Shown here piece after piece: positions 7,133-58,265 of a stretch of 58,265 nt of DNA. Under the pieces are notes generated by a model. The model was not told where the DNA came from. It did not search any database and saw nothing but the letters and a program-made list of their open reading frames with translations. Every line of letters starts with the position of its first letter. Within the stretch, counting starts at the first letter, position 1. The stretch is taken from assembly GCA_002790195.1 (NCBI GenBank), contig PFUR01000071.1, forward strand, positions 2,365 to 60,629, written 5' to 3'. Made by a program: the position numbers and the translations under genes. The stretch is from Flavobacteriales bacterium CG_4_9_14_3_um_filter_40_17 (GTDB lineage Bacteria; Bacteroidota; Bacteroidia; Flavobacteriales; Flavobacteriaceae).

Positions 7133-8686
7133 TCATTTCGGTTCCAAAATCACAAACGGTATGATGACTTCTTCCAAAGAAATGCCACCGTGTTGGTATG
7201 AGTTTTTGTAGTAATTCACATAGTGGTTAAAATTGTTCGGATAGGCCAAAAACAAATCGGACTTGGCAAAAATATAGGAGCTGCTCATATTGGTTGTCGG
7301 CAAGCGGATGTCTTTCGGATTTTTGATGGCATACACATCTTTGTTGTCATAGGTCAGGCTTCGCCCGGTTTTGTAGCGGAGGTTGAGGCTGGTTTCGCGG
7401 TCGCCGACCACCTTGGTAGGCGTTTTCACGTTGATGGTGCCGTGGTCGGTGGTTATGATAAGCTGGAAATTCATCTTTTGTGCCTGTTGGATAATGTCTA
7501 TCAGAGGTGAGTTTTTAAACCAACTCAAGGTCAGTGAACGATAGGCTTTATCATTGGATGCCAATTCTTTGATAACTTCCGTTTCGGTTTTTGCGTGGGA
7601 AAGCATATCGACAAAGTTGTACACCAACACCGAAAGATCAAACTCTTTTTGTTCGGAGAATTTTTCCGCAAATTTTTTGGCAAAATACAAGTTGGTTACT
7701 TTGGTGTAATGATGTTTGATGTTGTTGAGGCCCAATCGTTTGATTTGGTGTGTGAGCAACTCGTTTTCAAACAAATTTTTCCCGCCTTCCTCCACGTCAT
7801 TTTTCCAATATTGGGGATACAGTTTTTCGATTTCCGAAGGCATCAATCCGGCAAAAATCGCATTTCTAGCATATTGAGTGGCCGTGGGAAGGATGCTGAA
7901 AAAGGTTTTTTCCTCCATTTTTTTATAATAAGGGGCGATGGTCGATTCGATCACTTTCCATTGGTCATAACGGAGGTTGTCTATCACAACCATCAAGACG
8001 GGCTTGCCCTTTTTGATTTCCGGCACGGCATATTCCCTGAAAACCGTGTGCGACATCACCGGGCTGTTTTTGGGATTGTCAAACCAGTTTTTATAATTTT
8101 TTTCGATGAATTTGAAGAATTGCAGATTGGCTTCATGCTTTTGGGATTCGAGTATTTCTACCATCGAATTGTCTTCGATGTCTTCGAGCTCTATTTCCCA
8201 ATAAATCAATTTTTGATACAATGAACTCCATTCTTCAAACGAATTCACCGATGCCAATTCAATGGCAATATTTCTGAATTCCTGCCGATAGTTTGAAGCT
8301 GTTTTTTCAGAAACCAAACGGGTGTGGTGCAGATTCTTTTTTAAAGTCAATAAAATCTGGTTTGGGTTAACCGGCTTGATGAGGTAGTCGGCTATTTTTG
8401 AACCGATTGCATCGTCCATGATGAGCTCTTCCTCACTTTTGGTAATCATCACCACCGGGATCAAATTTTTGATTTCTTTGATTTCAGACAGTGTTTCCAA
8501 ACCCGAAAGGCCGGGCATGTTTTCATCCAAAAAAACAATGTCAAAATCTTGTTTTTTAATTTCTTCAATGGCTTCCGCACCGCTTTCGCAGGTGTGCACC
8601 AAATAACCTCTTTGTTCGAGAAAGATGATGTGCGGTTTGAGAAGGTTTACCTCATCATCTACCCAAAGTATCTTAATTGGATTCAT
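7133..8686 (-). CDS. porX: PorX, response regulator with PglZ phosphatase domain
   Basis: A 517-residue two-domain regulator required for type IX secretion gene expression and gliding in studied Bacteroidota. Residues 1-125 are a CheY-like receiver with acidic pocket D10/D11, phospho-acceptor D54 (FLDENMPG) and K83 (ITKSEEE). The rest is an alkaline-phosphatase-superfamily PglZ domain with LMVVIDNLRYDQW, LVYNFVDMLSH and IITTDHGT metal-site motifs. Known PorX proteins pair with histidine kinase PorY and the sigma factor SigP; PorX of some species hydrolyses oligoadenylates. No porY, sigP or structural por gene is in this window. The protein has no output DNA-binding domain. Confidence 0.95.
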   Translation of the reverse strand: MNPIKILWVDDEVNLLKPHIIFLEQRGYLVHTCESGAEAIEEIKKQDFDIVFLDENMPGLSGLETLSEIKEIKNLIPVVMITKSEEELIMDDAIGSKIADYLIKPVNPNQILLTLKKNLHHTRLVSEKTASNYRQEFRNIAIELASVNSFEEWSSLYQKLIYWEIELEDIEDNSMVEILESQKHEANLQFFKFIEKNYKNWFDNPKNSPVMSHTVFREYAVPEIKKGKPVLMVVIDNLRYDQWKVIESTIAPYYKKMEEKTFFSILPTATQYARNAIFAGLMPSEIEKLYPQYWKNDVEEGGKNLFENELLTHQIKRLGLNNIKHHYTKVTNLYFAKKFAEKFSEQKEFDLSVLVYNFVDMLSHAKTETEVIKELASNDKAYRSLTLSWFKNSPLIDIIQQAQKMNFQLIITTDHGTINVKTPTKVVGDRETSLNLRYKTGRSLTYDNKDVYAIKNPKDIRLPTTNMSSSYIFAKSDLFLAYPNNFNHYVNYYKNSYQHGGISLEEVIIPFVILEPK

Positions 8687-8721: not shown

Positions 8722-9966
8722 TTGAAAAAATCTGACAAACTCAAGTTATTTAACGACCCAATTTACGGTTTTATTTCCATACAGGATACGCTTATTTTTG
8801 AATTGATAGAACATCCTTATTTTCAAAGGTTAAGACGGATTACACAGATGGGGCTTTCCTATTTGGTTTATCCAGGTGCACACCACACAAGGTTTCACCA
8901 TGCCTTGGGATGTTACTACCTGATGCAGAAAGCAATCCGACTGCTCAGATTCAAAAATATTGAAATAAGCTCGGAAGAAGAACAAGCACTGTTAATCGCT
9001 ATCCTATTGCACGACATTGGCCACGGGCCATTTTCTCACGCCATGGAAAGCAGCATAGCCGAAGGCGTTCATCACGAAGATATTTCACTCAAGTTTATGG
9101 AAAAACTCAATCGGGAATTTTCCGGAAAATTGACGCTTGCCATTCAAATTTTCAAGAAACAACATCCCAAAACATTTCTGTGCCAATTGGTTTCCGGCCA
9201 ATTAGATATTGATCGGATGGATTATCTGAAACGCGACAGTTTCTTCACAGGTGTTTCCGAAGGCAACATCAATTCCGAACGGATTATTTCAATGCTCAAC
9301 GTGCATGACAACGAATTGGTTGTTGAAGAAAAAGGGATTTTTTCCGTTGAAAAATTCCTCATGGCTCGAAGATTCATGTATTGGCAAGTCTATCTACACA
9401 AAACCAGTGTAGCTGCCGAATTGCTTCTCACCAATACGCTCAAGCGCGCCAAAGAATTGGTAGATAAAAAACAAACAATCAATGCATCAAAAGCCTTGTC
9501 TTTTTTTATTCAAAACTACGTGTCAGAAGAAAATTTTGACGAAAAAACCATTGCTGTTTTTTCGCAAATAGATGATTATGATATCATTGCCGCCTTGAAA
9601 GATTGGCAACATCACGATGATTTTGTACTGTCAACCTTGTCTCGTATGTTGTTAAATCGCAAGCTTTTTAAAATTAAAGTGAAAGACCGCCCTATTTCAG
9701 ATAAAGCCTACCACTCGCAGTTAGCCAATGTAACTTCCGATTTTAAAATCACGGAGAAAGAGGCTGCATTTTTCGTCGTACGCGGGCAAATGACTAATTT
9801 GGCCTACAACGACAAGATTCAAAGCATCCACATCATCAGCAAGCAAAAAAAAATATTCGATTTGATTAATACGCCGGAAAAACTGATTGTCAGTTTTTTA
9901 ACCGAGCCGGTCAACAAGTATTATCTTTGCTTTCCGAGTTACCAAACTATCACAGAAATTTCCTAA
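8722..9966 (+). CDS. HD-domain phosphohydrolase (SAMHD1/dGTPase-like)
   Basis: A 414-residue cytoplasmic metal-dependent hydrolase. The N-terminus DPIYGFISI, HHTRFHHALG (54-63, first metal His), the HD pair in LLHDIGHGPFSH (97-98) and LDIDRMDYLKRDSFFTG (distal Asp) are hallmarks of the HD family related to dNTP triphosphohydrolases and SAMHD1. The exact nucleotide substrate is not predictable. The start is a TTG codon at 8722, directly after a -7-like box; no ATG exists near it. It immediately precedes lpxD (10 bp), as in many flavobacteria, so the lipid A operon may be cotranscribed with it. Confidence 0.9.
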   Translation: MKKSDKLKLFNDPIYGFISIQDTLIFELIEHPYFQRLRRITQMGLSYLVYPGAHHTRFHHALGCYYLMQKAIRLLRFKNIEISSEEEQALLIAILLHDIGHGPFSHAMESSIAEGVHHEDISLKFMEKLNREFSGKLTLAIQIFKKQHPKTFLCQLVSGQLDIDRMDYLKRDSFFTGVSEGNINSERIISMLNVHDNELVVEEKGIFSVEKFLMARRFMYWQVYLHKTSVAAELLLTNTLKRAKELVDKKQTINASKALSFFIQNYVSEENFDEKTIAVFSQIDDYDIIAALKDWQHHDDFVLSTLSRMLLNRKLFKIKVKDRPISDKAYHSQLANVTSDFKITEKEAAFFVVRGQMTNLAYNDKIQSIHIISKQKKIFDLINTPEKLIVSFLTEPVNKYYLCFPSYQTITEIS

Positions 9967-45495: not shown

Positions 45496-46299
45496 GTGAA
45501 TATATTTTATAAAATTTTCGATTTTTACATCCGATCAAGTCTTCATGTTGCTTTGGCAATAACTTGCCTCTCAGCGAGTACTTTTCTTGATAGAGGTGAA
45601 GGCGTCAATTTTTTTTTAGCGGTTTTTATATACTCGGCTGCGGTTTTGGCGTATAACTTTGCAAAATACGCAACTTTGCCACTTATGGTTTTGAAAAAGC
45701 AAAAGGGAGTCTTGATGATTAGTTTTATGGCTTTCATTTCGGCAGCTGTATTTGCTTTTTTTCTGCCAATCAAAATATTTTGGTGGAGCTTGCTTTTTTC
45801 GATGCTGACTTTGTTTTACAGTTTTCCGGCACGACCTGATATCAAAAATTTCAGGAATCGTTTTGGTGTTAAAGCCTATTTGATTGCTATTTGTTGGTCG
45901 GGTATTTGTGTGGGACTTCCACTGCTTTATCTGGATGTGGATTTTGATTATCAAGCTTTGTCCGCCTTGTTGGAAATTTTTCTTTTTGTTTTGGTTTGGC
46001 TTATTCCATTTGACATTCGGGACATGGAGACAGATCACAAAGATTTGGGGACAATTCCAATGGTTTTAGGTATTAGAAAAACAAAGATAGTCGGAAGTAT
46101 ATTGTTGTCGCTCATTGTGTTTTCTAACCTTATTAGTGGTGGATTGGCGTGGAATTCGATTTATTTGATCTGTTTGTTATCTGCGTTTTTTTTGTGGAAG
46201 GCACAAAAAAAACAATCGAAATACTTCAGTTCCTTTTGGGTAGAAAGCATTTCGATTGTTTGGTTTTTAATCGAGTATTTCAATAAGTTCAGTGGGTAG
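45496..46299 (+). CDS. UbiA-like prenyltransferase homologue
   Basis: A 267-residue membrane protein with about eight helices, related to the UbiA superfamily. The second diphosphate-binding motif is kept as FDIRDMETDHKDLGT (D173, D176, D180, D183). The first motif, normally NDxxD, reads N54-F-A-K-Y and lacks both aspartates. The lack suggests a changed or absent prenyl-transfer function. The start is GTG at 45496. Its end overlaps the convergent zinc-finger gene by 11 bp. Confidence 0.78.
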   Translation: MNIFYKIFDFYIRSSLHVALAITCLSASTFLDRGEGVNFFLAVFIYSAAVLAYNFAKYATLPLMVLKKQKGVLMISFMAFISAAVFAFFLPIKIFWWSLLFSMLTLFYSFPARPDIKNFRNRFGVKAYLIAICWSGICVGLPLLYLDVDFDYQALSALLEIFLFVLVWLIPFDIRDMETDHKDLGTIPMVLGIRKTKIVGSILLSLIVFSNLISGGLAWNSIYLICLLSAFFLWKAQKKQSKYFSSFWVESISIVWFLIEYFNKFSG

Positions 46300-46585
46300 A
46301 ATTTAATTCTTTTTCAAATTTTATCCGAATCAATTCTTTTGAATTTAAATCGAGTTTTTTAGGAGGATGTGAAATTCCAACACGATTAAACAAGTCGGAA
46401 AGTTTTTGATTTTTTTTAGAATATGCCCGACAGTAATCACAATAAAACATGTGAATTTTTAGCCTGACTTTTTCCCAAAATGTGAGTTCGCCATATTGTC
46501 TTTTGTCACAAGCTAATCCGGCTTCATCGCAGGAATAGAACAATTTTTCTTTGTGATTTTGATCGTGATTGTGGTTGTGTTTCAT
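46289..46585 (-). CDS. His-rich zinc-finger protein, putative anti-sigma factor
   Basis: A 98-residue soluble protein that starts MKHNHNHDQNHKE, a histidine-rich stretch, followed by SCDEAGLACDKRQ and KIHMFYCDYCRAYSKK. The last is the HxxxCxxC zinc motif of ZAS anti-sigma factors. The gene lies 14 bp downstream of an ECF sigma gene, so it is probably its regulator, sensing metal or oxidation. An upstream in-frame ATG at 46627 would overlap the sigma gene; the ATG at 46585 avoids this. No membrane segment is present. Confidence 0.75.
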   Translation of the reverse strand: MKHNHNHDQNHKEKLFYSCDEAGLACDKRQYGELTFWEKVRLKIHMFYCDYCRAYSKKNQKLSDLFNRVGISHPPKKLDLNSKELIRIKFEKELNSTH

Positions 46586-46599
46586 TATAATTTTTTCTT

Positions 46600-47169
46600 T
46601 TAAGCGTACCAACTTTTTTCTAGGCAATCCATCAGTTGCAACCTTGCACGGTGGATGATAACCCAGAGATTTGACGGGGTGATATCTAGCTCCTTACAGA
46701 TAATTTCAGTTTCAAAACCTTCGACGGTTTTCATTTTAAAAATGGTTGCTTGCTTCTCCGGAAGCTTGTCCATACACTTGTTGATAGCTAATCCGAGTTC
46801 AACGTTTTCCATCTCTGATTCTGCATTGCCGTCTAAGTGATAATCGGCTACACGTTCTTCCAACCATTCTCCTTCATTTTCCGTATCGTCATTGTAGGTG
46901 ATTCGAACTTCTGCTTTGCCTTTTTTGGAATTTATTTTTCGATAATAATCGATGATTTTACGTTTTAAAATAGAGATAAGCCAAGTCCGCTCGGAAGCTT
47001 CTCCTTTAAAATTCTTCATGGCTTTCAGGGCGGACAAAAAGGTTTCTTGCACCAAATCTTTGGCAACCTCATCGTCATTGACTTTTACGATGGTATAGTT
47101 AAAAAGATAATCAGAATAAGCATCAATCCATTTATTTGGGTCGAGGGTTTGTTTTTCCAATTCGTTCAT
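46600..47169 (-). CDS. ECF-type RNA polymerase sigma factor
   Basis: A 189-residue group 4 sigma factor with region 2 (NYTIVKVNDDEVAKDLVQETFLSALK, SERTWLISILKRKIIDYYRK) and region 4 (INKCMDKLPEKQATIFKMKT, ICKELDITPSNLWVIIHRAR). It is paired with the zinc-binding small protein at 46289. The long charged linker between the regions (about 90-130) is wider than usual. Its targets are not known. Confidence 0.92.
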   Translation of the reverse strand: MNELEKQTLDPNKWIDAYSDYLFNYTIVKVNDDEVAKDLVQETFLSALKAMKNFKGEASERTWLISILKRKIIDYYRKINSKKGKAEVRITYNDDTENEGEWLEERVADYHLDGNAESEMENVELGLAINKCMDKLPEKQATIFKMKTVEGFETEIICKELDITPSNLWVIIHRARLQLMDCLEKSWYA

Positions 47170-49545: not shown

Positions 49546-50040
49546 TTAGTTGCTTTTTTTAATTTCAGCTGAACCCTTAATAACTTTCGCTTTTAAACTT
49601 TCTTTGTAGGCATCGAGTTTCGTTTGTACACTTGCATCAAACACCCCGATGATTTGTGCTGCCAAGATGCCTGCGTTTTGCGCACCGTTGAGAGCCACTG
49701 TGGCAACCGGCACTCCGGCGGGCATTTGAAGAATAGACAGAACCGAATCCCAACCGTCTATGCTGTTGCTACTTTTTACCGGCACCCCAATGACCGGCAA
49801 AGAAGTGAGCGATGCCACCATCCCGGGCAGATGCGCCGCACCTCCGGCTCCGGCGATGATGACCGAAATGCCGTTTTGGCGGGCGTTTTTAGAAAATTCA
49901 AAAAGTTTCTCAGGTGTCCTGTGGGCGGAAATTATGTCAACTTCGGTGGAGACACCAAAGGTTTTTAAAATATCGACGGCAGCCTGCATGACCGATAAAT
50001 CGCTGCTGCTGCCCATGATAACGGCTATTTTGTGCTTCAT
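49546..50040 (-). CDS. purE: N5-carboxyaminoimidazole ribonucleotide mutase
   Basis: De novo purine enzyme that moves the carboxyl group of N5-CAIR to C4 to give CAIR. The 164 residues contain IMGSSSDLSVMQAAVDILK, ISAHRTPEK (catalytic His), GAGGAAHLPGMVAS and PVIGVPVKS. The start at 50040 is chosen: the open frame extends 11 codons upstream, overlapping the putative promoter. A -7-like box, TACCTTTG on the minus strand, lies at 50058-50065. purK is not in the window. Confidence 0.95.
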   Translation of the reverse strand: MKHKIAVIMGSSSDLSVMQAAVDILKTFGVSTEVDIISAHRTPEKLFEFSKNARQNGISVIIAGAGGAAHLPGMVASLTSLPVIGVPVKSSNSIDGWDSVLSILQMPAGVPVATVALNGAQNAGILAAQIIGVFDASVQTKLDAYKESLKAKVIKGSAEIKKSN

Positions 50041-50174
50041 AATGGGGGATTTTGCAACAAAGGTATTAATCAAATTCTATTTTACCCTTGTAAAACCAAA
50101 AAGTTGCATTTGCTTTTTGAATCTAGGTCTGTTCAACTTCCCTTTCTATTGCCGATAATTTCCCCGCCATTGCC

Positions 50175-50182
50175 TATCTTTG
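50175..50182 (+). promoter_or_regulatory. Putative -7 box for argS
   Basis: TATCTTTG followed by C matches TAnnTTTGC and is 26 bp before the ATG at 50209. A TTG is at 50149-50151, 23 bp upstream, slightly more than the usual spacing. It supports the ATG at 50209 as the argS start. Confidence 0.45.
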
Positions 50183-50208
50183 CCGCTTCAAAAGATGTAA
50201 CACAACCC

Positions 50209-51978
50209 ATGGAAATTCTGATACAGCAAGCCGTCAAAACTGCATGCATAAACCTTTTTCAAGTCGATATTGACCAAGTCGATGTGCAACCCACCAAATC
50301 TGATTTTGAAGGGGACCTCACGGTTATACTTTTCCCCTTGCTCAAATACGTCAAGAAAAACCCACCGCAGTTGGGTGAAGAAATAGGCGCTTTTCTCGTG
50401 AAAGAAATCGAAGCGGTCGAAGGTTTCAACGTCATCAAAGGTTTTTTGAATCTCACCATTTCCGACACCTATTTTTTCAATTTTTTCAAGTCCATACAAG
50501 GCGACAAACATATTGGCATCGCACCAATTGACGAAAACGCACCGGCTGTGATGGTCGAATATTCATCGCCCAACACCAACAAGCCACTGCATCTCGGGCA
50601 TATCCGCAACAATCTTTTAGGCTATTCCGTAGCTGAAATCCTCAAAGCTTCCGGTAAAAAAGTCTATAAAACCCAAATCATCAACGACCGCGGTATCCAT
50701 ATTTGTAAATCGATGTTGGCTTGGCAAAAATTTGGCAAAGGCGAAACGCCGGAATCTTCCGGATTGAAAGGGGATAAACTCGTTGGGAAATATTATGTCT
50801 TGTTCGACACAACATACAAGTCACAGATTGCTGAACTCATGAAAAATGGTTTGACTGATGAGCAGGCCAAAAAGCAAGCACCCATCTTGCTCGAAGCACA
50901 AAAAATGCTTCAACTTTGGGAAGGCGGCGACCCGGAAACTGTTTCGCTGTGGAAAATGATGAACGGTTGGGTTTACAAAGGATTTGAAGAAACTTATAAG
51001 AATCTCGGGGTCGATTTTGATACCTACTACTACGAAAGCGATACCTATCTTTTAGGGAAGGATGTGGTGCAAATCGGACTCGATAAAGGCGTGTTTGAAA
51101 AAGACCCCGACGGTTCGGTATGGATAGACCTAACGGGTGAAGGTCTTGATCGAAAAATCGTGTTGCGCAGCGATGGCACTGCCGTTTATATGACGCAAGA
51201 CATCGGCACGGCCATCCAACGCGTAAAGGATTATCCTGATGTCAAAGGTATGGTTTATACGGTTGGAAACGAGCAAGACTACCATTTCAAAGTGTTGTTT
51301 CTCATCTTGAAAAAACTCGGTTTCGATTGGGCCGAAAACCTTTTTCACCTCAGCTACGGTATGGTCGATCTGCCTTCCGGAAAAATGAAAAGCAGGGAAG
51401 GAACTGTTGTAGATGCCGATGATTTGATGGACGAAATGACTCAAAGTGCGGCGGCCATCACCGAAGAATTGGGCAAACTCGATGATTTTGACGAAGAACA
51501 GAAGCAAGTACTTTTCAAATTGATTGGTTTGGCGGCTTTGAAATATTTTATCCTCAAAGTAGATCCCAAAAAGCGCATCTTGTTCAACCCCAAAGAGTCC
51601 ATCGATTTTCAGGGGAATACCGGTCCGTTTATCCAATATACCTATGCACGGATCCGGTCTATTTTGCGCAAATCCGGGAAAACGATAGAAGCAACTTTTC
51701 CGAATGAGCTCCATCCAAGAGAAAAAGAAATACTTAAAACACTGCGTTATTTTCCGAGAACGGTGCAGGAAGCAGCCGAACAATTCAATCCCGCTTTGGT
51801 GGCAAATTACGTATATGAATTGGTAAAACTTTACAATTCTTACTATCAGGCCGTACCCATACTGAGTGTGGAAGATACTGCAGTCCGAAATTTCCGGGTA
51901 CAGCTATCGGAGACTGTTGGTTTAACAATTAAAAATGCTTTTGCCTTGCTGGGAATTACAGTACCAGATCGGATGTAA
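50209..51978 (+). CDS. argS: Arginyl-tRNA synthetase
   Basis: Class I synthetase charging tRNA-Arg. The 589 residues have the N-terminal Add-1 domain, SPNTNKPLHLGHIRNN (the HIGH motif), the KMSKS-like SGKMKSREGTVV and the DALR anticodon domain. The frame is open for 59 codons upstream of the ATG at 50209, but MEILIQQAVKTACI is the family start and a promoter-like box lies just before it. It is convergent with the TonB receptor gene, 5 bp apart. Confidence 0.97.
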   Translation: MEILIQQAVKTACINLFQVDIDQVDVQPTKSDFEGDLTVILFPLLKYVKKNPPQLGEEIGAFLVKEIEAVEGFNVIKGFLNLTISDTYFFNFFKSIQGDKHIGIAPIDENAPAVMVEYSSPNTNKPLHLGHIRNNLLGYSVAEILKASGKKVYKTQIINDRGIHICKSMLAWQKFGKGETPESSGLKGDKLVGKYYVLFDTTYKSQIAELMKNGLTDEQAKKQAPILLEAQKMLQLWEGGDPETVSLWKMMNGWVYKGFEETYKNLGVDFDTYYYESDTYLLGKDVVQIGLDKGVFEKDPDGSVWIDLTGEGLDRKIVLRSDGTAVYMTQDIGTAIQRVKDYPDVKGMVYTVGNEQDYHFKVLFLILKKLGFDWAENLFHLSYGMVDLPSGKMKSREGTVVDADDLMDEMTQSAAAITEELGKLDDFDEEQKQVLFKLIGLAALKYFILKVDPKKRILFNPKESIDFQGNTGPFIQYTYARIRSILRKSGKTIEATFPNELHPREKEILKTLRYFPRTVQEAAEQFNPALVANYVYELVKLYNSYYQAVPILSVEDTAVRNFRVQLSETVGLTIKNAFALLGITVPDRM

Positions 51979-51983
51979 ATATT

Positions 51984-54548
51984 TTAAAAAAACAGCCGAA
52001 AACTCACGTTAGGTGTAAGTCCAAGAGAATGGTTGTCAATACGTTGTATGGAAGATATGTTGTTTCTTGTTTGAAGGGTATAATAACTGTTCAGTATGTT
52101 TTTTTCATCCAATACATTTAGAATTGACAATCCGGCAACCGCACGAAAGCGGCTGATAAAAAATTGGTAGTCAGCCGAAAAATCAGCTCTTGAAAAATCG
52201 GGCAAGGTGCTGCTGTTGGGTGATTGAAAATTGATGGTTTGGAAAGCACCCGGATTTGAGATAGGTTCATCCGTATTGGGTTCGGTGAAAGGTTTTCCGG
52301 TTCGCCATTGATATCCGAATGAGAATTTGAAATTTTTGATCTTGTAGTTAGTTATCAGGCTCAATGAATGTTTGACATCTTGGTTGTTGGGAATTCGCGA
52401 AGGTGTCAGGCTGTCAAAAGTAATATGGTTGTCTTTGTAGGCGTAGGCTGCGGATACTGAAAAATCGTGAATTTTTTTGTCAATCAAAATTTCTACTCCT
52501 TTAATGTCATACTTACCTTCAAGTTTTTGGAATTGCAGTTGATCTTGAAAACCTTGATTGGACGAGGTGATTTCGTCCACGCTTTTTAGAAATCCGGTTA
52601 GGTTGATTATCCAATTTTTTTGCGAATAATTGATGTCAAACGATGCCTGACGACTGTGGACGACCGGAAATTCTTCTCCGTTTGCCAATGTCCAACGCCT
52701 TTTTTCAACACCGAGAAAGTCTTCCTGCAAATCGATGGTTTGCGTAGTGGTTTGGTGTTTGAGTTCGCCCATGAGTTGGATAGAAAAAGCAGGCGACAAT
52801 TTTTGATACATGTTGAGCCGAGGTTCAAAAATCCACTCGTCAAAATCTTCGATGTAACTTGCACGGACACCGGCAGTAGTCTTGAAGCCGAAATTGCTGA
52901 AATAATTTGTTTCTGAATAAGCAGCGTGTTCGGTCAGGACATTTTTTATACTGCTTGAAAAGAAAGGGTTGTTGACTTCTTGGAGGTTGGTTATGCCGGT
53001 TTCCACAACCTGATAGCCAAAATTTAAGTTTATCCGGTTGTTCCAAAAATAGTTAAAGTTGGCTTTTGCGGAAGTTTCCAAGACTTCGTTTTTTTGTTTG
53101 AGGCTCTGGTTGGATTGAAGGTTAAAATTGACAGCATCTAAGTTGTAGTTGGTGTAGTAAGCATTCAAATTTATCCGCCAGCGTTCATTCATTCTGATGA
53201 GCCCTTCCAATCCCAAAGCAATATTTTCTTGTTCTAACCTGCTTGTCTTGCTTTCGTCTTCATCGTCATCTTCGTCATCGGTATCTATTATCTTTATAGA
53301 TTCTTTGATGCTTAGTGCATTGTCAAATTTGAATATGTTAATTCTAAATTTTATATATTCATTGAAGTCGAGAAACAATTTTGCATTGAGGTCGTAAAAG
53401 TTAAAACTTTCCGAGGAAGAAAAATTATCATTCGGATTCAAATTATCTTTAGCTAAAGCCTTTGAATCTTGAAAAGCGCGTTTAAAATATTCGTCGTAAG
53501 TGGGCGTGTTAAAAAGGTTGTTAATTGATCGCCTGCCCGATATTTGTAGGCCTATATTTTTGGAGAAAGGAGCTAAAAGATAAGCGTCGGCATTAATCAG
53601 ATTGATGCCTGCGCCACCTTTTGTTTTTGCAGGCAATTTCTGGCTTGTTTTGAAGTCGAGCATACCGGAAACACCATCGCCGTATTGGGCGGAAACCCCG
53701 TTTTTATACACGTTGATTTCCTCTGTCACATAAGGGTTCATCGAAGAGATTAAACCAAAAAAATGACCGGTTTGGTACATCTTGATGCCATCCCATAGTA
53801 CCAAATTTTGGTCATTCGTGCCTCCGCGAATGTTGATGGTAGAAACTGTTTCGTTGATGCTTTCGATTCCGGGAAGTTTTTGCACAATTTGCAGGATATC
53901 TGGCTCAATCAAGCCGGGGAGCATACCATAATCTTTGGTTTTGATAAGCAAACTTCCGTCAGATTTCAGGTTGAGACCGGAAGTCAATACGTTCTGCACA
54001 ATGACTTCTGTCAACAATTGGATTTTAGAATTGAGTAATGCGTTTTTGCAGGGCTTTTCATCGTTAAAATAGGATGCGGGAATCAACTTTTCTTCATATC
54101 CGAGATGACGAATGGTTAAAATCGCATCGACTCCGACTTCTGTCAAATTAAAAAAACCATCTTGGTCAGAAATTGTGTTGTTACCTACTTTTGAATCTAT
54201 AATATAGGCTTCCGAGATGGGTTCACCCATATTGCCTACCAATCTTCCGCATACGTTGTTTGTAGTTTTTCCTCTTGCGATGACGGCTATATTTTTATCA
54301 TTGAGGATGGTATAGCTGAAATTCGTGTTTGATCGGAGGAAGGAAATCAATTCGGGCAATGACAGTGTTGATTTTGGGCGTAAAACAAACTCCGATTCTA
54401 AGTCGCTGTTTCGATAGGAGAATCTTACATCATGCGTATTTTCAATCTCTTGCAAAAAGTCAACCAAAGAAACCCGCTCTTGTGCGAACAAGACAGAGCT
54501 GAAAAGGAAAAAAATGACAACAATTTGCTTTAGATTAATTTTCGGCAT
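51984..54548 (-). CDS. TonB-dependent receptor with STN and carboxypeptidase-like domains
   Basis: An 854-residue outer-membrane transporter. The signal peptide ends at FAQ (residue 23). A FecA-type STN signalling domain is at about 25-92 (VSLVDFLQEIENTHDVRFSY), then a carboxypeptidase-like beta sandwich (98-178), the plug (183-300, with INIRGGTNDQNLVLWDGI) and the barrel ending in VSFRLFF. A strikingly acidic segment, DTDDEDDDEDES (422-433), lies in what should be an extracellular loop. There is no adjacent susD, so this is a FecA-like receptor for a small ligand. The start at 54548 overlaps the FecR stop by 14 bp. Confidence 0.92.
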   Translation of the reverse strand: MPKINLKQIVVIFFLFSSVLFAQERVSLVDFLQEIENTHDVRFSYRNSDLESEFVLRPKSTLSLPELISFLRSNTNFSYTILNDKNIAVIARGKTTNNVCGRLVGNMGEPISEAYIIDSKVGNNTISDQDGFFNLTEVGVDAILTIRHLGYEEKLIPASYFNDEKPCKNALLNSKIQLLTEVIVQNVLTSGLNLKSDGSLLIKTKDYGMLPGLIEPDILQIVQKLPGIESINETVSTINIRGGTNDQNLVLWDGIKMYQTGHFFGLISSMNPYVTEEINVYKNGVSAQYGDGVSGMLDFKTSQKLPAKTKGGAGINLINADAYLLAPFSKNIGLQISGRRSINNLFNTPTYDEYFKRAFQDSKALAKDNLNPNDNFSSSESFNFYDLNAKLFLDFNEYIKFRINIFKFDNALSIKESIKIIDTDDEDDDEDESKTSRLEQENIALGLEGLIRMNERWRINLNAYYTNYNLDAVNFNLQSNQSLKQKNEVLETSAKANFNYFWNNRINLNFGYQVVETGITNLQEVNNPFFSSSIKNVLTEHAAYSETNYFSNFGFKTTAGVRASYIEDFDEWIFEPRLNMYQKLSPAFSIQLMGELKHQTTTQTIDLQEDFLGVEKRRWTLANGEEFPVVHSRQASFDINYSQKNWIINLTGFLKSVDEITSSNQGFQDQLQFQKLEGKYDIKGVEILIDKKIHDFSVSAAYAYKDNHITFDSLTPSRIPNNQDVKHSLSLITNYKIKNFKFSFGYQWRTGKPFTEPNTDEPISNPGAFQTINFQSPNSSTLPDFSRADFSADYQFFISRFRAVAGLSILNVLDEKNILNSYYTLQTRNNISSIQRIDNHSLGLTPNVSFRLFF

Positions 54549-55455
54549 GCAATACAACCTTTTTGTCAGCAATAAAACGATAAGTAAGTTTTAGAGGTAA
54601 ACAAATTGTTTTTAAGGCTAAATCTAAGTTTCCTCTCTTAAAACTTCCTGTAAATCGTTGATCTAAACTTACTGTGGAATCAACGTCGATTTGAAGATTG
54701 TATTGTCTTTTGAGCTCATCTAAGACTATTTGTAACGATTCATTTTCAAAATTGCTTACTCCCGTCGTCCAAAAAGGAGCTTTTGCCACTATGCTCGAAA
54801 GTACCAAAGTGCCGTCTGTGGATAGTTTTACGCATTTTCCGGGTGTCAACCGAATGATTTCACGACCGTGAGAAACATCCACCTTCCCTTGATAACATTC
54901 TACTTCAAATAGGTTTTCACGCTGATTTACATTGAATTGTGTACCCACAACTTGTACATTTCCAAGAGATGTTTGTACCGTAAATTTTCCCCCTTTTGAA
55001 ACCTTAAAATAAGCTTCGCCTTCCAGATGAATCAAACGTTTTTTATTCCAATTATTTTTTTGATAGGATAATTTTGAACCTGCATTGATGAGAACTTCAG
55101 AGGCATCGGGCAGGACTATTTCCGATTGTTGGGCATAGGCAACTTCAATCACACTAGGCCTGGTTTGAAAGAAATAATAAACACCAACCAAGGCGATAAG
55201 AATGGCCGCATAGCGGTAAACCTTTTGAAAGGTAAAAAGTTTGTACACCTTTTGGGGCTGATTGCGTTTGGCAATTAACTTTTCATAAGCTTTTTCTAAC
55301 TCATATTCCGGCGTAGCCAAATGGGAAGCCGCTTGGCTTATTTGAATATATTCCAACAATTCAGGATCATTTTTGATGGCAGCTATATCGCTTTCGTCTG
55401 CCTCTGCATTGAGCCACCGATTCAACAATTCTTTCTGTGTAAAATTCAAGTTCAT
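54535..55455 (-). CDS. FecR family anti-sigma factor
   Basis: A 306-residue membrane regulator. The N-terminal cytoplasmic part (1-85, EADESDIAAIKNDPELLEYI) would hold the sigma factor. One membrane helix is at about 86-105 (YAAILIALVGVYYFF). The periplasmic part is the FecR domain (EIVLPDASEVLINAGSKLSY, LEGEAYFKVSKGGKFTVQT, and GTQFNVNQRENLFEVECYQG) followed by a DUF4974-like region that contacts the receptor's STN domain. It is the middle gene of the signalling operon, 54 bp after the sigma gene. Confidence 0.94.
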   Translation of the reverse strand: MNLNFTQKELLNRWLNAEADESDIAAIKNDPELLEYIQISQAASHLATPEYELEKAYEKLIAKRNQPQKVYKLFTFQKVYRYAAILIALVGVYYFFQTRPSVIEVAYAQQSEIVLPDASEVLINAGSKLSYQKNNWNKKRLIHLEGEAYFKVSKGGKFTVQTSLGNVQVVGTQFNVNQRENLFEVECYQGKVDVSHGREIIRLTPGKCVKLSTDGTLVLSSIVAKAPFWTTGVSNFENESLQIVLDELKRQYNLQIDVDSTVSLDQRFTGSFKRGNLDLALKTICLPLKLTYRFIADKKVVLHAEN

Positions 55456-55509
55456 TTTCTTGGTTTTAGTATAATAACCCTTTAAGTGTGTTTTACCCTA
55501 CCCGGTAGT

Positions 55510-56034
55510 TTAAATATTTCCAATTTCCTCCCTCAAAACCATCAGGGCGTTGTGTATCCGTTTTTCGACTGCTTTCACGGAAATCTGCAAATGTTCTGCA
55601 ATTTCTACATATTTCATTCCTTCAATCCGGTTCAGCAAAAAAGCAGTCCGCTGTGCCTCTGATAAATTTGCTATCGAGTTTTCTAATTTGGTTTTAAACT
55701 CTTCTGTTTCTAAAATAAACTCAGGCGACTCGTTGGTGTGTTTTTTGGTGCTTTGGTTTCCGAATTTTAATTTCACTTTTTGATGTGCCACCTCATTGAG
55801 TGAAAGATTTGTAGCTATCGTGTATAAATAGGATTTGGCCTTACCGTAAGGTACTTTAGAACAATTCTCCCACAATTTAATAAAAGCTTCCTGAACAACA
55901 TCTTCGGCTTTTTCAAGATTGCCAAATTTGAAATAGATATAGTTGCGGATTTTTGGTGCCAATTGATTGAAAATAGATTGGTAGAGCCTGTCTTCACACA
56001 CATTTTGCGTTATTTCAGTAGGGTTTGACTGCAT
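55510..56034 (-). CDS. ECF RNA polymerase sigma factor, FecI-like
   Basis: A 174-residue sigma-70 family factor (Bacteroidota RpoE-like group) with region 2 (QLAPKIRNYIYFKFGNLEKAEDVVQEAFIKLWE) and region 4 (IANLSEAQRTAFLLNR, EIAEHLQISVKAVEKRIHNAL). First gene of the sigma/FecR/receptor operon, in the usual order. It is held inactive by FecR until the receptor binds ligand. The divergent lipoprotein gene starts 109 bp away and is a candidate target. Confidence 0.95.
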   Translation of the reverse strand: MQSNPTEITQNVCEDRLYQSIFNQLAPKIRNYIYFKFGNLEKAEDVVQEAFIKLWENCSKVPYGKAKSYLYTIATNLSLNEVAHQKVKLKFGNQSTKKHTNESPEFILETEEFKTKLENSIANLSEAQRTAFLLNRIEGMKYVEIAEHLQISVKAVEKRIHNALMVLREEIGNI

Positions 56035-56143
56035 AGTTTTTGTAAAAAATGTGCGTAAAGTTAAAAAAATTAACCATGAAAGTAGGGTATTGCCGAAGTT
56101 GTTTGTTACACTTTCAAATCAGAATCACAAAATCTTACCCATT

Positions 56144-57604
56144 ATGAAAAAATTTGTAAAACACCTTAGTTTATTGTTCTTGATTCCGCTGGCTTTGGCA
56201 AGTTGCCAAACTGACCGTGCAGACATTGTTTCTCAAAACCCAGAAACAACTATCACAGCAAATTCAGAAACTGCCGCATTGCTTACACTTAGTGCCCAAA
56301 ATGATGGAACAGTCGATGATTTCATCGATGGATTGAGTGCAACATCCGTTAATTTTCCTTATGTGGTTGATCTAAATGGTCAGTTAACCACCATCACATC
56401 TGAAAGTTCTTTGTTGCAATTCAAACAAAGTGTACAAGCCTCCGGGAATTTCAACCCGATTAGCATGGTTTTTCCTGTCGTAGTTCGTTCAGATGATCAT
56501 GCTGAAAAGGAAATCAGCAACGAAGCCGAATTTGATGATCATTTGCGAAAAGAAAATGATGAATCAGAAAACAAATTTAGAAGCAGAATCAACTGTTTTA
56601 GATTCAATTTTCCTATTACCTTGTTGACTTTCAACACCAACCAAGAGCAAACAGGAAGCGTAGTTGTCAGTACCAAAAAGGAACTTTTCGCCTTTTTCAC
56701 TCAACTTCCCGCCAGCGTTGTTGTAAACATTCAATACCCCATCAGTATAACTTTCAAAGATGAGTCGACACTGCAAATCGAGAGCAATGAACAACTCCGT
56801 CGCGTGTTGTTGGAATGTAGGGATGATGACAAAATTAGCGATGACGATACCATCGATGATGACATTCGCGGTGATTTGTTAGACCAAGCCATCAATTTAC
56901 AACGCACCCTATTGACCGCAGATTGGACCATCGCAAAATTTCTAAACAATGGAAACGACCGTACAGCTGTTTATCAAAATTTGAAATTTGAATTTTTCAG
57001 AGGTGGAGCCATCAAGGTTTCTGCAACAGACCGGACGGCTTTCGGAAGATGGGAGATTAATAAATCTGACAATAATGGACTCGAACTCGAATTGAAATTC
57101 AGAGATGAAGTCCAAGTGTTAGAAGTTCTTGACGAAGATTGGTTGGTCTTAAACTTTACCAACACCCATTTAGAACTATCCAAAGAAGGTGACCTCCTTA
57201 CTTTTGAAGGAACACCAAACGGTGGAGTAACCGTCGATCCTGTTGACCCTGCCCCAACACCAGATGCAGCTGCTTTCAAAGAGGCACTAACGGACGGAAG
57301 TTGGAATGTCGAAAGCTTTAGCCAAGCCGGTGTTGACATCACTACTCAATTCGCCGGATTCAGCTTGTCTTTCACCGCCACCGGCGTAGTTACAGCCACC
57401 CGCGGAGCCGAAGTTCGCGTCGGAACTTGGGCGACTGAAACCAGCTTTACCGGGCTCGAACTCAATTTAGACTTGGAAGATGTCAGCCCGATTGACGAAC
57501 TCGATGAAGATTGGTTGGTACTCGAATTCAGCAACACCCGCATTGCCCTCAAACATCGCAACGGAGATGGCAGGATAGATGAATTGATTTTCAGTAAAAA
57601 TTGA
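56144..57604 (+). CDS. Repeat-built, aspartate-rich lipoprotein
   Basis: A 486-residue lipoprotein, lipid attachment at Cys21 (LALASC). Four degenerate repeats of about 30-35 residues are visible at about 70-98, 108-135, 154-186 and 197-224, each with a F/Y-P-strand followed by a helix containing S/N-x-E-x-L. An acidic linker (DDDKISDDDTIDDD, 227-240) follows. Then two homologous domains of about 105 residues (248-355 and 374-485) share LDEDWLVLNFTNTHLEL / LDEDWLVLEFSNTRIAL. I know the repeat type from uncharacterised Bacteroidota lipoproteins. The upstream frame is open, but ATG 56144 gives the proper signal peptide. Its setting suggests a surface partner of the receptor operon; a calcium- or metal-binding role is inference. 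Confidence 0.8.
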   Translation: MKKFVKHLSLLFLIPLALASCQTDRADIVSQNPETTITANSETAALLTLSAQNDGTVDDFIDGLSATSVNFPYVVDLNGQLTTITSESSLLQFKQSVQASGNFNPISMVFPVVVRSDDHAEKEISNEAEFDDHLRKENDESENKFRSRINCFRFNFPITLLTFNTNQEQTGSVVVSTKKELFAFFTQLPASVVVNIQYPISITFKDESTLQIESNEQLRRVLLECRDDDKISDDDTIDDDIRGDLLDQAINLQRTLLTADWTIAKFLNNGNDRTAVYQNLKFEFFRGGAIKVSATDRTAFGRWEINKSDNNGLELELKFRDEVQVLEVLDEDWLVLNFTNTHLELSKEGDLLTFEGTPNGGVTVDPVDPAPTPDAAAFKEALTDGSWNVESFSQAGVDITTQFAGFSLSFTATGVVTATRGAEVRVGTWATETSFTGLELNLDLEDVSPIDELDEDWLVLEFSNTRIALKHRNGDGRIDELIFSKN

Positions 57605-57629
57605 GATAATAATTTTGGTTGGTTAGTTA

Positions 57630-57663
57630 AAAACGGTTGCTGTCTTCGGATGGCAACCGTTTT
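57630..57663. terminator. Intrinsic terminator after the lipoprotein gene
   Basis: AAAACGGTTGC (57630-57640) pairs with GCAACCGTTTT (57653-57663), an 11-bp perfect stem around a 12-base loop, with T residues at the end. It lies 26 bp after the lipoprotein stop and before the ffh promoter. Confidence 0.8.
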
Positions 57664-57684
57664 GTTATAGATGAAATACACCAA

Positions 57685-57715
57685 TTGCTTCTTCCTTTGT
57701 TTTATTTTATCTTTG
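57685..57715 (+). promoter_or_regulatory. Promoter for ffh
   Basis: TTG at 57685-57687, a 20-bp spacer and TATCTTTG at 57708-57715 followed by C match both parts of the Bacteroidota housekeeping promoter. The ffh ATG follows 23 bp later. One of the two best promoter matches in the window. Confidence 0.6.
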
Positions 57716-57738
57716 CCATCCATTTTATTTTCAAAAAC

Positions 57739-58265
57739 ATGTTTGACAATCTGTCCGAAAAAATCGATAAAGCACTCCACTTGCTGAAAGGCCACGGAAG
57801 CATCACCGAAATCAATGTTGCCGAAACACTCAAAGAAGTCCGCCGTGCCTTGGTGGATGCAGACGTTAACTTCAAGATAGCCAAAGATTTTACAGCCTCG
57901 GTCAAAGAAAAAGCCCTCGGGCAAAACGTGCTGAAAACTTTGCAGCCCGGTCAGTTGATGGTTAAAATTGTCAAAGATGAGCTGGCTGCGCTGATGGGTG
58001 GGGAAGCTTCCGGTATCAATCTTTCCGGAAATCCATCTGTCATCTTGATGTCGGGCTTGCAAGGTTCCGGAAAAACCACTTTCTCTGGAAAATTGGCGCT
58101 CTATCTCAAAATGAAAAAATCAAAAAAAGTACTGCTAGTCGCTTGCGATGTCTATCGCCCGGCAGCCATCAACCAACTTCAGGTAGTCGGAGAGCAAATA
58201 GACGTGGCGGTTTTCACGGACATTGATAATAAAAACCCGGTTGACATTGCTAAAAAAGCAGTAGC
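57739..58265 (+). CDS. ffh: Signal recognition particle protein Ffh (5' part, runs off the window)
   Basis: The first 175 codons of the SRP GTPase that targets membrane proteins co-translationally with 4.5S RNA. The N domain (MFDNLSEKIDKALHLLKGHG, EVRRALVDADVNFKIAKDF) and the start of the G domain (GLQGSGKTTFSGKLALYL, LLVACDVYRPAAINQL) are present. The remaining G domain and the RNA-binding M domain lie beyond the window end, so the entry is partial by position, not by damage. Confidence 0.96.
   Translation, partial: MFDNLSEKIDKALHLLKGHGSITEINVAETLKEVRRALVDADVNFKIAKDFTASVKEKALGQNVLKTLQPGQLMVKIVKDELAALMGGEASGINLSGNPSVILMSGLQGSGKTTFSGKLALYLKMKKSKKVLLVACDVYRPAAINQLQVVGEQIDVAVFTDIDNKNPVDIAKKAV

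Follow-up and report, generated by a model that had tools for sequence, protein, structure and literature searches.

Does a lipoprotein gene that stands back to back with a signalling operon belong to the circuit which that operon encodes, and if so, what does it do there? This question is raised by a locus of Flavobacteriales bacterium CG_4_9_14_3_um_filter_40_17, on contig PFUR01000071.1, of which we analysed a stretch of 58,265 nucleotides (the window). On the minus strand lie the genes for an extracytoplasmic function (ECF) sigma factor of 174 residues (55510..56034), a FecR anti-sigma factor of 306 residues (54535..55455) and a TonB-dependent receptor or transducer of 854 residues (51984..54548, starting at the ATG at 54548 within an open reading frame, ORF, that spans 51984-54572). 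On the plus strand, a divergent gene encodes a modular lipoprotein of 486 residues (56144..57604), and the sequence confirms the 109 bp previously given for the gap between it and the sigma gene. With a probability of roughly 0.65, we interpret this set as a cell-surface signalling cassette of the FecIR type to which a lipoprotein output has been added, i.e. one in which the sigma factor very probably, to judge from comparison with relatives, also switches on the lipoprotein gene.

All four proteins had been named in a preliminary description of the window, and their ORFs and domain matches bear this out. The sigma factor carries the Pfam domains Sigma70_r2 and r4_2, scores 83.2 bits against the NCBIfam model sigma70-ECF (cut-off 42.9) and, with 123.4 bits, stays slightly below the cut-off of TIGR02985 (126.4). 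The anti-sigma factor exceeds the Pfam cut-offs for both FecR (64.9 bits, E value 9e-18) and FecR_C (47.5 bits, E 2e-12), and its hydropathy profile contains a single hydrophobic segment (residues 82-98); a FecR search of the organism's own assembly (2.69 Mb, 99.49% complete) returned just one match at E <= 0.001, which is the window gene. The receptor is laid out as an N-terminal FecR_C/STN-like region, a CarbopepD_reg_2-like domain (E 4e-7; 30.5 bits, slightly below the cut-off of 32.2), a Plug (E 6e-10, above the cut-off) and a barrel. In the window, the N-terminal signalling-type domain of this receptor gives no more than a weak FecR_C match (E 0.004, below the cut-off); among 30 receptors, this domain was matched by FecR_C in 19 (best E 2.7e-7) and by STN in two. 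The lipoprotein has a signal peptide and a lipobox, LASC, with its cysteine at residue 21, and because this fits a start at the ATG at 56144, the mechanically assigned GTG at 56051 is too early. Since the set is flanked by argS and ffh, no SusD or transporter gene directly adjoins it, and Pfam finds no SusD family member in the four genes and these two flanks, just as had been stated; the further wording that the set 'lacks any transporter' was loose because the receptor itself belongs to a transporter class.

Whether the two loci are neighbours in relatives had been chosen beforehand as one point on which a link between them should be judged, and the pair turned out to be conserved. A protein search covered 60 genomes including the organism's own, 37 from the same family, presumably Flavobacteriaceae, and 23 from other families of the order; the lipoprotein was present in 24, all of them among the 37, and in none of the 23. 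Among the 38 loci examined, which include those of two near relatives known as metagenome-assembled Bacteroidetes (L032 and L033), 28 held 30 divergent sigma–lipoprotein systems with FecR and receptor behind the sigma gene, and these 30 systems and the window made up our training set of 31. In L061-L068, whose matches were weak or confined to the lipocalin part, there was no cassette (in L061, just a distant sigma factor nearby), L034 is a short contig, and the divergent lipoprotein of L069 was detected only with a profile. Viewed in reverse, i.e. starting from the receptor, 31 receptors in the 37 genomes score at least 950 bits; 30 of them have a divergent lipoprotein and the remaining one (G010:C54) stops at a contig edge. 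The next ten score 413-781 bits, one of them being the truncated receptor of L032, and the lowest, L129, was excluded; in the nine distant family receptors with sigma and FecR, the lipoprotein is divergent in L069, L123, L126 and L122. For L129-L133, neither sigma nor FecR was detected near the receptor.

Beyond these genomes, a profile of the N-terminal lipoprotein module matched in 45 of 296 genomes of the order. All of the 40 new loci fetched first had the divergent arrangement, the gap in L160 measuring about 2 kb, and the 16 others included six divergent loci, a co-directional one from another family (L184) and one with the promoter only (L181). Overall, 46 of 56 new lipoprotein genes, and all 45 that score at least 110 bits, stand beside a divergent cassette. 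In a sample of the phylum, 40 of 395 genomes matched, 35 from the window's family and already seen, and five from outside; in each of these five the lipoprotein adjoins FecR and receptor (four divergent, one co-directional), with no sigma factor detected beside them in L202. When just the repeat unit was searched for, 40 of the 395 matched as well, with a profile that already contained those distant proteins. Outside the family, then, the lipoprotein lies beside FecR and receptor in six of seven loci, divergent in four and co-directional in two, L190 being the exception. The survey of co-occurrence across Bacteroidota that the preliminary description had called for thus finds the pair kept both within the family and outside it. 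The gap between sigma and lipoprotein genes has a median of 115 bp in 74 systems and is at most 310 bp in 69 of them. Although L138 and L149 at first seemed to have lost FecR and receptor, further examination disproved this. Its recurrence, across a single family as well as in some more distant bacteria, makes the cassette look like a genuine system for sensing or uptake, albeit an uncharacterised one; no description of the pair was found among the literature matches listed, as judged by titles and abstract openings.

Two predicted sigma-dependent promoters, both recognized by motif comparison, connect the divergent halves of the locus: GTAGGGT-N14-TTGTT before the lipoprotein gene (56082..56107, plus strand) and GTAGGGT ... 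GGTTA before FecR and receptor (55475..55501, minus strand). The underlying motif, AGG-N17-TGTT, was defined on the training loci and then tested on new ones. In training, it occurs on the lipoprotein strand of 26 of the 31 regions and on the opposite strand of none (300 shuffles: mean 0.5, maximum 4), and no other spacing from 10 to 24 bases gives more than seven; before FecR it is found in 25 of 31 systems (25 of 32 if L069 is counted). Several misses are variants: in L036_5599 and L046 both promoters read TGTC, and the FecR promoters of the window and of L032 read GGTT. When written as AGG-N17-TGT[TC], the motif precedes the lipoprotein gene in 28 and FecR in 28 of the 31 training systems, the window being one of the three FecR misses, and on the test loci it was found before 35 of 40 lipoprotein genes and 38 of 38 FecR genes (200 shuffles: means 0.92 and 0.81, maxima 4). 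In its strict TGTT form it still precedes 30 of 40 and 31 of 38, respectively, and occurs once on the reverse strand of the 40 lipoprotein regions. Both motifs are also present in six of six further systems and in three of three systems of the more distant receptors. The sigma gene itself seems to be served differently: TAnnTTTG, the -7 box of flavobacterial sigma-A according to a Flavobacterium psychrophilum start-site study (PMC9723704), appears on the sigma side in 31 of 71 regions and on the lipoprotein strand in six (shuffle mean 7.6, maximum 16). None of the six motifs named in the passages of that study consulted here is AGG-N17-TGTT; its ECF-type motif has a CGT box (PMC9723704).

Do these promoters belong each to its own sigma factor? 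In eight genomes with several systems, the lipoprotein promoter is most similar to the FecR promoter of its own locus in 20 of 20 cases (permutation fraction 5e-5). Among the 62 of 74 systems that have both motifs, the base before AGG agrees between the two promoters in 59 and the choice of TGTT or TGTC in 61. On a tree of the 74 sigma factors, the FecR-promoter types, as grouped by ourselves and including a class 'not typed', need 10 changes as compared with 38.4 after shuffling, a value as low being reached in none of 200 shuffles, and the CAGG type forms a single group (support 100/99). The comparison within genomes is the cleaner one, since that with the sigma tree includes relatedness. 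Where FecR and receptor have become parted from the sigma gene, by about 7.5 kb in G285 and onto another contig in G320, the promoter is kept 47-49 bp before FecR, although these stretches hold a few other matches to the motif as well. Thus, genomic linkage, paired promoters and the match of promoter to sigma all emerge from sequence comparison, and since pairing, paired promoters and the agreement of promoters by subtype and by locus coincide, there is strong in silico support for the earlier proposal that the sigma factor acts on the lipoprotein gene.

Several findings weigh against this interpretation of the locus. In the window itself, the FecR promoter reads GGTT instead of TGTT, the exact TAnnTTTG box was not found for the sigma gene in the 109-bp gap, and the export signal of the lipoprotein, CQTDRAD, is weak. 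A pattern written from the two window sites gives three matches in the own genome and five in a reversed control, so that single sites there are not significant alone. Among the nine distant family receptors mentioned above, L121, L124, L125 and L127 have no adjoining FP lipoprotein (FP denoting the repeats described below), and none was found when small ORFs were searched as well; the lipoprotein is co-directional in L128 and lies 1.3 kb off in L122. Eight of the 16 later-fetched lipoproteins, mostly weaker relatives, come without motif or cassette, among the outliers being L190 from outside the family, and the gap exceeds 310 bp in five of 74 systems. Finally, none of the seven loci from other families showed the motif before the lipoprotein gene, and L198 alone showed it before FecR.

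As to a wider regulon, GTAGGGT-N14-TTGTT occurs at 46 sites in 11 genomes as compared with 11 for its reversed control, some of these sites preceding mixed genes and some having no nearby ORF. The organism's own genome shows just a slight excess (four sites versus two, and three versus five with the pattern just mentioned), and a regulon beyond the locus was rejected; for this reason only two lipoproteins encoded at remote sites, in L063 (9423-10019, minus strand) and L181 (5454-6962, minus strand), are named as possible further targets of a sigma factor of the same kind. Both are of the same domain type and have GTAGGGT-N14-TTGTT or a similar site upstream, and that of L063 has a long DDGYY repeat ahead of one lipocalin-like stretch.

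What kind of protein is it, then, that the sigma factor would control? The full-length structural model of the window lipoprotein has a mean predicted local distance difference test score (pLDDT) of 85.3 and a predicted template modelling score (pTM) of 0.46, so that its domains are firm and their mutual arrangement is not; the N-terminal module modelled alone reaches a pLDDT of 90.4 and a pTM of 0.81. In the model, this module is built from four beta-rich repeats with a helix after each of them, arranged as two FP-FP units: a first pair at about residues 69-145 (56348..56578, plus strand; models and repeat-unit profile A4), which in the window lacks the cysteines, and a second pair, a C-FP-FP-C unit, at about residues 150-231 (56591..56836, plus strand; models and repeat-unit profile). 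In 26 such units, chosen to start and end at cysteines, both cysteines and both prolines are invariant. Two barrels follow, at residues 256-358 (56909..57217, plus strand; matched by 4qrl with Z 11.8, root-mean-square deviation (rmsd) 2.1 and 95 aligned residues) and residues 376-486 (57269..57601, plus strand; 4zgf with Z 11.2, rmsd 2.9 and 104 aligned residues), and both have a lipocalin-like fold in the predicted model. No sequence family accounts for the protein: the window lipoprotein has no Pfam match and two NCBIfam matches far below cut-off, and 32 lipoproteins gave nothing but single-member matches to either database. For the FP module, Foldseek found no fold at E <= 0.001 in the PDB, a viral library likewise gave none at this threshold, the best Z for VIA was 5.1 over 45 residues, and its sequence had no PDB match at E <= 10; this is a weak absence of a clear known fold, and we do not claim a new one.

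Across the relatives, the FP module is suggested to be the constant part of the protein, since distant relatives of about 220 residues consist of FP units alone. The C-terminal modules, by contrast, are none, lipocalin-like, Kazal-like or extra FP units, with Kazal-like cysteine-rich modules joined to FP units in L126 (5469-6965, minus strand) and L069 (8934-10382, plus strand). At least two acidic residues at positions +2 to +7 after the lipid cysteine are found in 30 of 32 lipoproteins and resemble a lipoprotein export signal described previously (PMC5080379). As further observations on this protein family, the lipoprotein of L191 (6155-7153, minus strand), which a cassette adjoins, shows repeat-unit matches overlapping at steps of about 110 bases, i.e. 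tandem half units, and lipoproteins of about 155 residues that match only the lipocalin-like part (such as those in L066 at 9392-9859, plus strand, and L035 at 8155-8631, minus strand) in several loci directly follow the main lipoprotein.

Taken together, the cassette may operate as follows. The sigma gene would be transcribed from an ordinary housekeeping promoter, and FecR would keep its product inactive at the inner membrane. By analogy with the FecIR and Fox systems (PMC11637429, PMC9249621), a ligand at the TonB-dependent receptor would make the periplasmic signalling domain alter its contact with FecR and so free the sigma factor. The latter would bind and fire two AGG-N17-TGT[TC] promoters, one for FecR and receptor, the other for the divergent lipoprotein, which, judging from the acidic residues beside its lipid cysteine, would be exported to the cell surface. 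There, the FP module would most likely work at the side of the receptor and present or hold its ligand in the manner of SusD-, HmuY- or BtuG-like lipoproteins, and exchangeable lipocalin-like or Kazal-like modules could provide binding specificity. Such a role of the lipoprotein as a capture partner of the receptor is plausible. Going one step further, we tentatively suggest that C-FP-FP-C is a so far undescribed type of receptor-partner domain, by which Bacteroidota link receptors that signal through FecR to exchangeable binding heads; it would be a further kind of partner beside the SusD-like and HmuY/BtuG-like lipoproteins. The window's family would then use a private promoter code, which changes along with each sigma factor, to keep several such sensor–lipoprotein pairs in one cell free of cross-talk.

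The lipoprotein could also be an output only, i.e. a surface effector such as an adhesin, inhibitor or shield, produced once the receptor has sensed something but without contact to receptor or ligand. This possibility has to be taken seriously, even if we do not favour it: the variability of the C-terminal modules, the lipoproteins of the same type that are encoded remotely and preceded by the same motif (L063, L181) and the two genomes in which sigma and lipoprotein genes stay together while FecR and receptor lie elsewhere would all be consistent with it. The presence of the FP module beside FecR and receptor in six of the seven loci from other families, even in changed order, fits a direct partner equally well or better.

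A more specific version, in which potempin- or Kazal-inhibitor-like modules shield the cell from proteases while the receptor senses protease products, seems improbable. Potempin E (8ehd) is indeed among the fold matches of the second barrel (Z 10.8, rmsd 3.0, 93 aligned residues), one Kazal-like fragment matches Kazal_2 at E 6e-4, and a C-x-C...PVC pattern is repeated in L126 and L069. However, other fold matches tie with potempin E, and the lipocalin-like fold is common to many unrelated functions; the Kazal_2 match (20.2 bits) stays below the Pfam cut-off of 22.8, the three other fragments from L126 and L069 give E 2.3 once and otherwise no match, and the whole proteins have none at E <= 0.1. 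Moreover, many of the lipoproteins have neither module.

Still less likely is the idea, put forward in the preliminary description, that receptor and lipoprotein bind the same cation or cationic ligand by means of acidic segments. Both segments exist where they had been placed, at residues 422-433 of the 854-residue receptor (DTDDEDDDEDES; 53250..53285, minus strand) and at residues 227-240 of the lipoprotein, within a linker at residues 226-242 (RDDDKISDDDTIDDDIR; 56819..56869, plus strand) whose pLDDT is below 50 at 231-242. With 10 of 12 acidic residues, the receptor loop was matched in none of 5000 shuffles of the same protein, and the lipoprotein stretch, with 9 of 14, in 76 of 5000. Of 32 lipoproteins, 22 have an acidic linker (at least 7 of 13 residues), and both segments are acidic in the window genome and its sister species L032. 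In an alignment of the window receptor with 29 relatives (A2; mean column identity 49%), by contrast, none of the 29 has, by eye, a comparably acidic stretch at the position of the loop, where L033, of the same genus, reads ENEENTR. Only L032 has a similar loop, SGDDNDDDDNQ, in a receptor gene that is cut by a contig end and is not part of this alignment. By this comparison the loop is confined to the genus, and because it is rare while the linker is common, the two are not found together in most relatives, including those whose lipoproteins retain the linker. Since only the window and L032 show the loop, the system is unlikely to rest on a binding site formed jointly by the two segments, and a shared acidic ligand was rejected as a conserved principle.

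Neutral synteny, i.e. a lipoprotein gene simply kept between sigma and ffh by vertical inheritance, can practically be dismissed: the cassette, which with its surroundings covers 50032-58263 in the window, does often lie at a stable position close to argS, ffh and folD (among 29 loci, ffh-like ORFs recur at 16, argS-like ones at 9 and those of a family that we take to be folD at 15), but where a genome has several cassettes, the pair is retained in every one of them, other families keep it in changed order, and promoters match locus by locus within a genome. No recurring transporter was seen among the annotated recurrent neighbour families, rarer families being unannotated.

We therefore return to a FecIR-type cassette with an added lipoprotein output and to its place among known systems. 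With FecIR/FecA and Fox of Proteobacteria it shares an ECF sigma factor, an anti-sigma factor with a FecR domain and one hydrophobic segment, a TonB-dependent receptor with a putative N-terminal signalling-type region and a sigma-type promoter before the receptor unit. It differs from these systems in having a second promoter of this type, directed towards a divergent modular lipoprotein, in the promoter sequence AGG-N17-TGT[TC] and in the lack of an adjoining gene for a periplasmic or inner-membrane transporter. SusCD and polysaccharide utilisation loci with sigma–FecR pairs have the same Bacteroidota order of sigma, FecR and receptor and also combine a lipoprotein with the receptor; here, however, the four genes and two flanks contain no SusD-like protein, and the lipoprotein is of a different family and divergently transcribed. 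BtuB–BtuG and HmuR–HmuY are pairs of a TonB-dependent receptor and a dedicated surface lipoprotein, and the present cassette, likened to them by general description, differs in the adjacent sigma/FecR pair in control. The lipocalin-like lipoproteins of Bacteroides (4qrl and the DUF4847 protein 4zgf) and potempin E resemble the two C-terminal barrels in fold, whereas the window barrels have no sequence-family match and belong to a larger protein that also contains an FP module. Dma, a dual-membrane anti-sigma factor of Bacteroidota, likewise joins outer membrane and cytoplasm, yet in Dma the barrel forms the C-terminal part of the protein itself and the sigma factor belongs to ECF21 (PMC13088901); no such fusion is seen here, as the 306-residue FecR protein ends with FecR_C (residues 235-301) and the barrel belongs to a separate receptor. 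Sigma and FecR genes of Flavobacterium johnsoniae that are induced by phosphate depletion (PMC8115612) could not be linked to the cassette.

Other signalling genes were noticed along the way. At 46289-47169 on the minus strand, the window encodes a second ECF-type sigma factor (189 residues; Sigma70_r2, r4_2), followed by a protein of 112 residues with a cysteine/histidine-rich motif, which has no Pfam match at E <= 0.001 and is perhaps the anti-sigma factor of this second sigma. In L124, L125 and L127, related sigma–FecR–receptor sets have the same promoter before FecR and no FP lipoprotein that we could find; L124 and L125 have an outward-facing promoter before a related gene for 130-135 residues about 300 bp on.

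Bacteroidota have many receptors with unknown ligands, and few of their sigma regulons are known. The cassette brings to this field a promoter code that can be read and a family of lipoproteins to which no model in Pfam or NCBIfam was found to correspond, so that both regulon and ligand become directly testable, and it may also supply orthogonal sigma–promoter pairs. If the FP module is indeed a partner of the receptor, many uncharacterised lipoproteins encoded beside sigma–FecR–receptor genes would thereby acquire a role.

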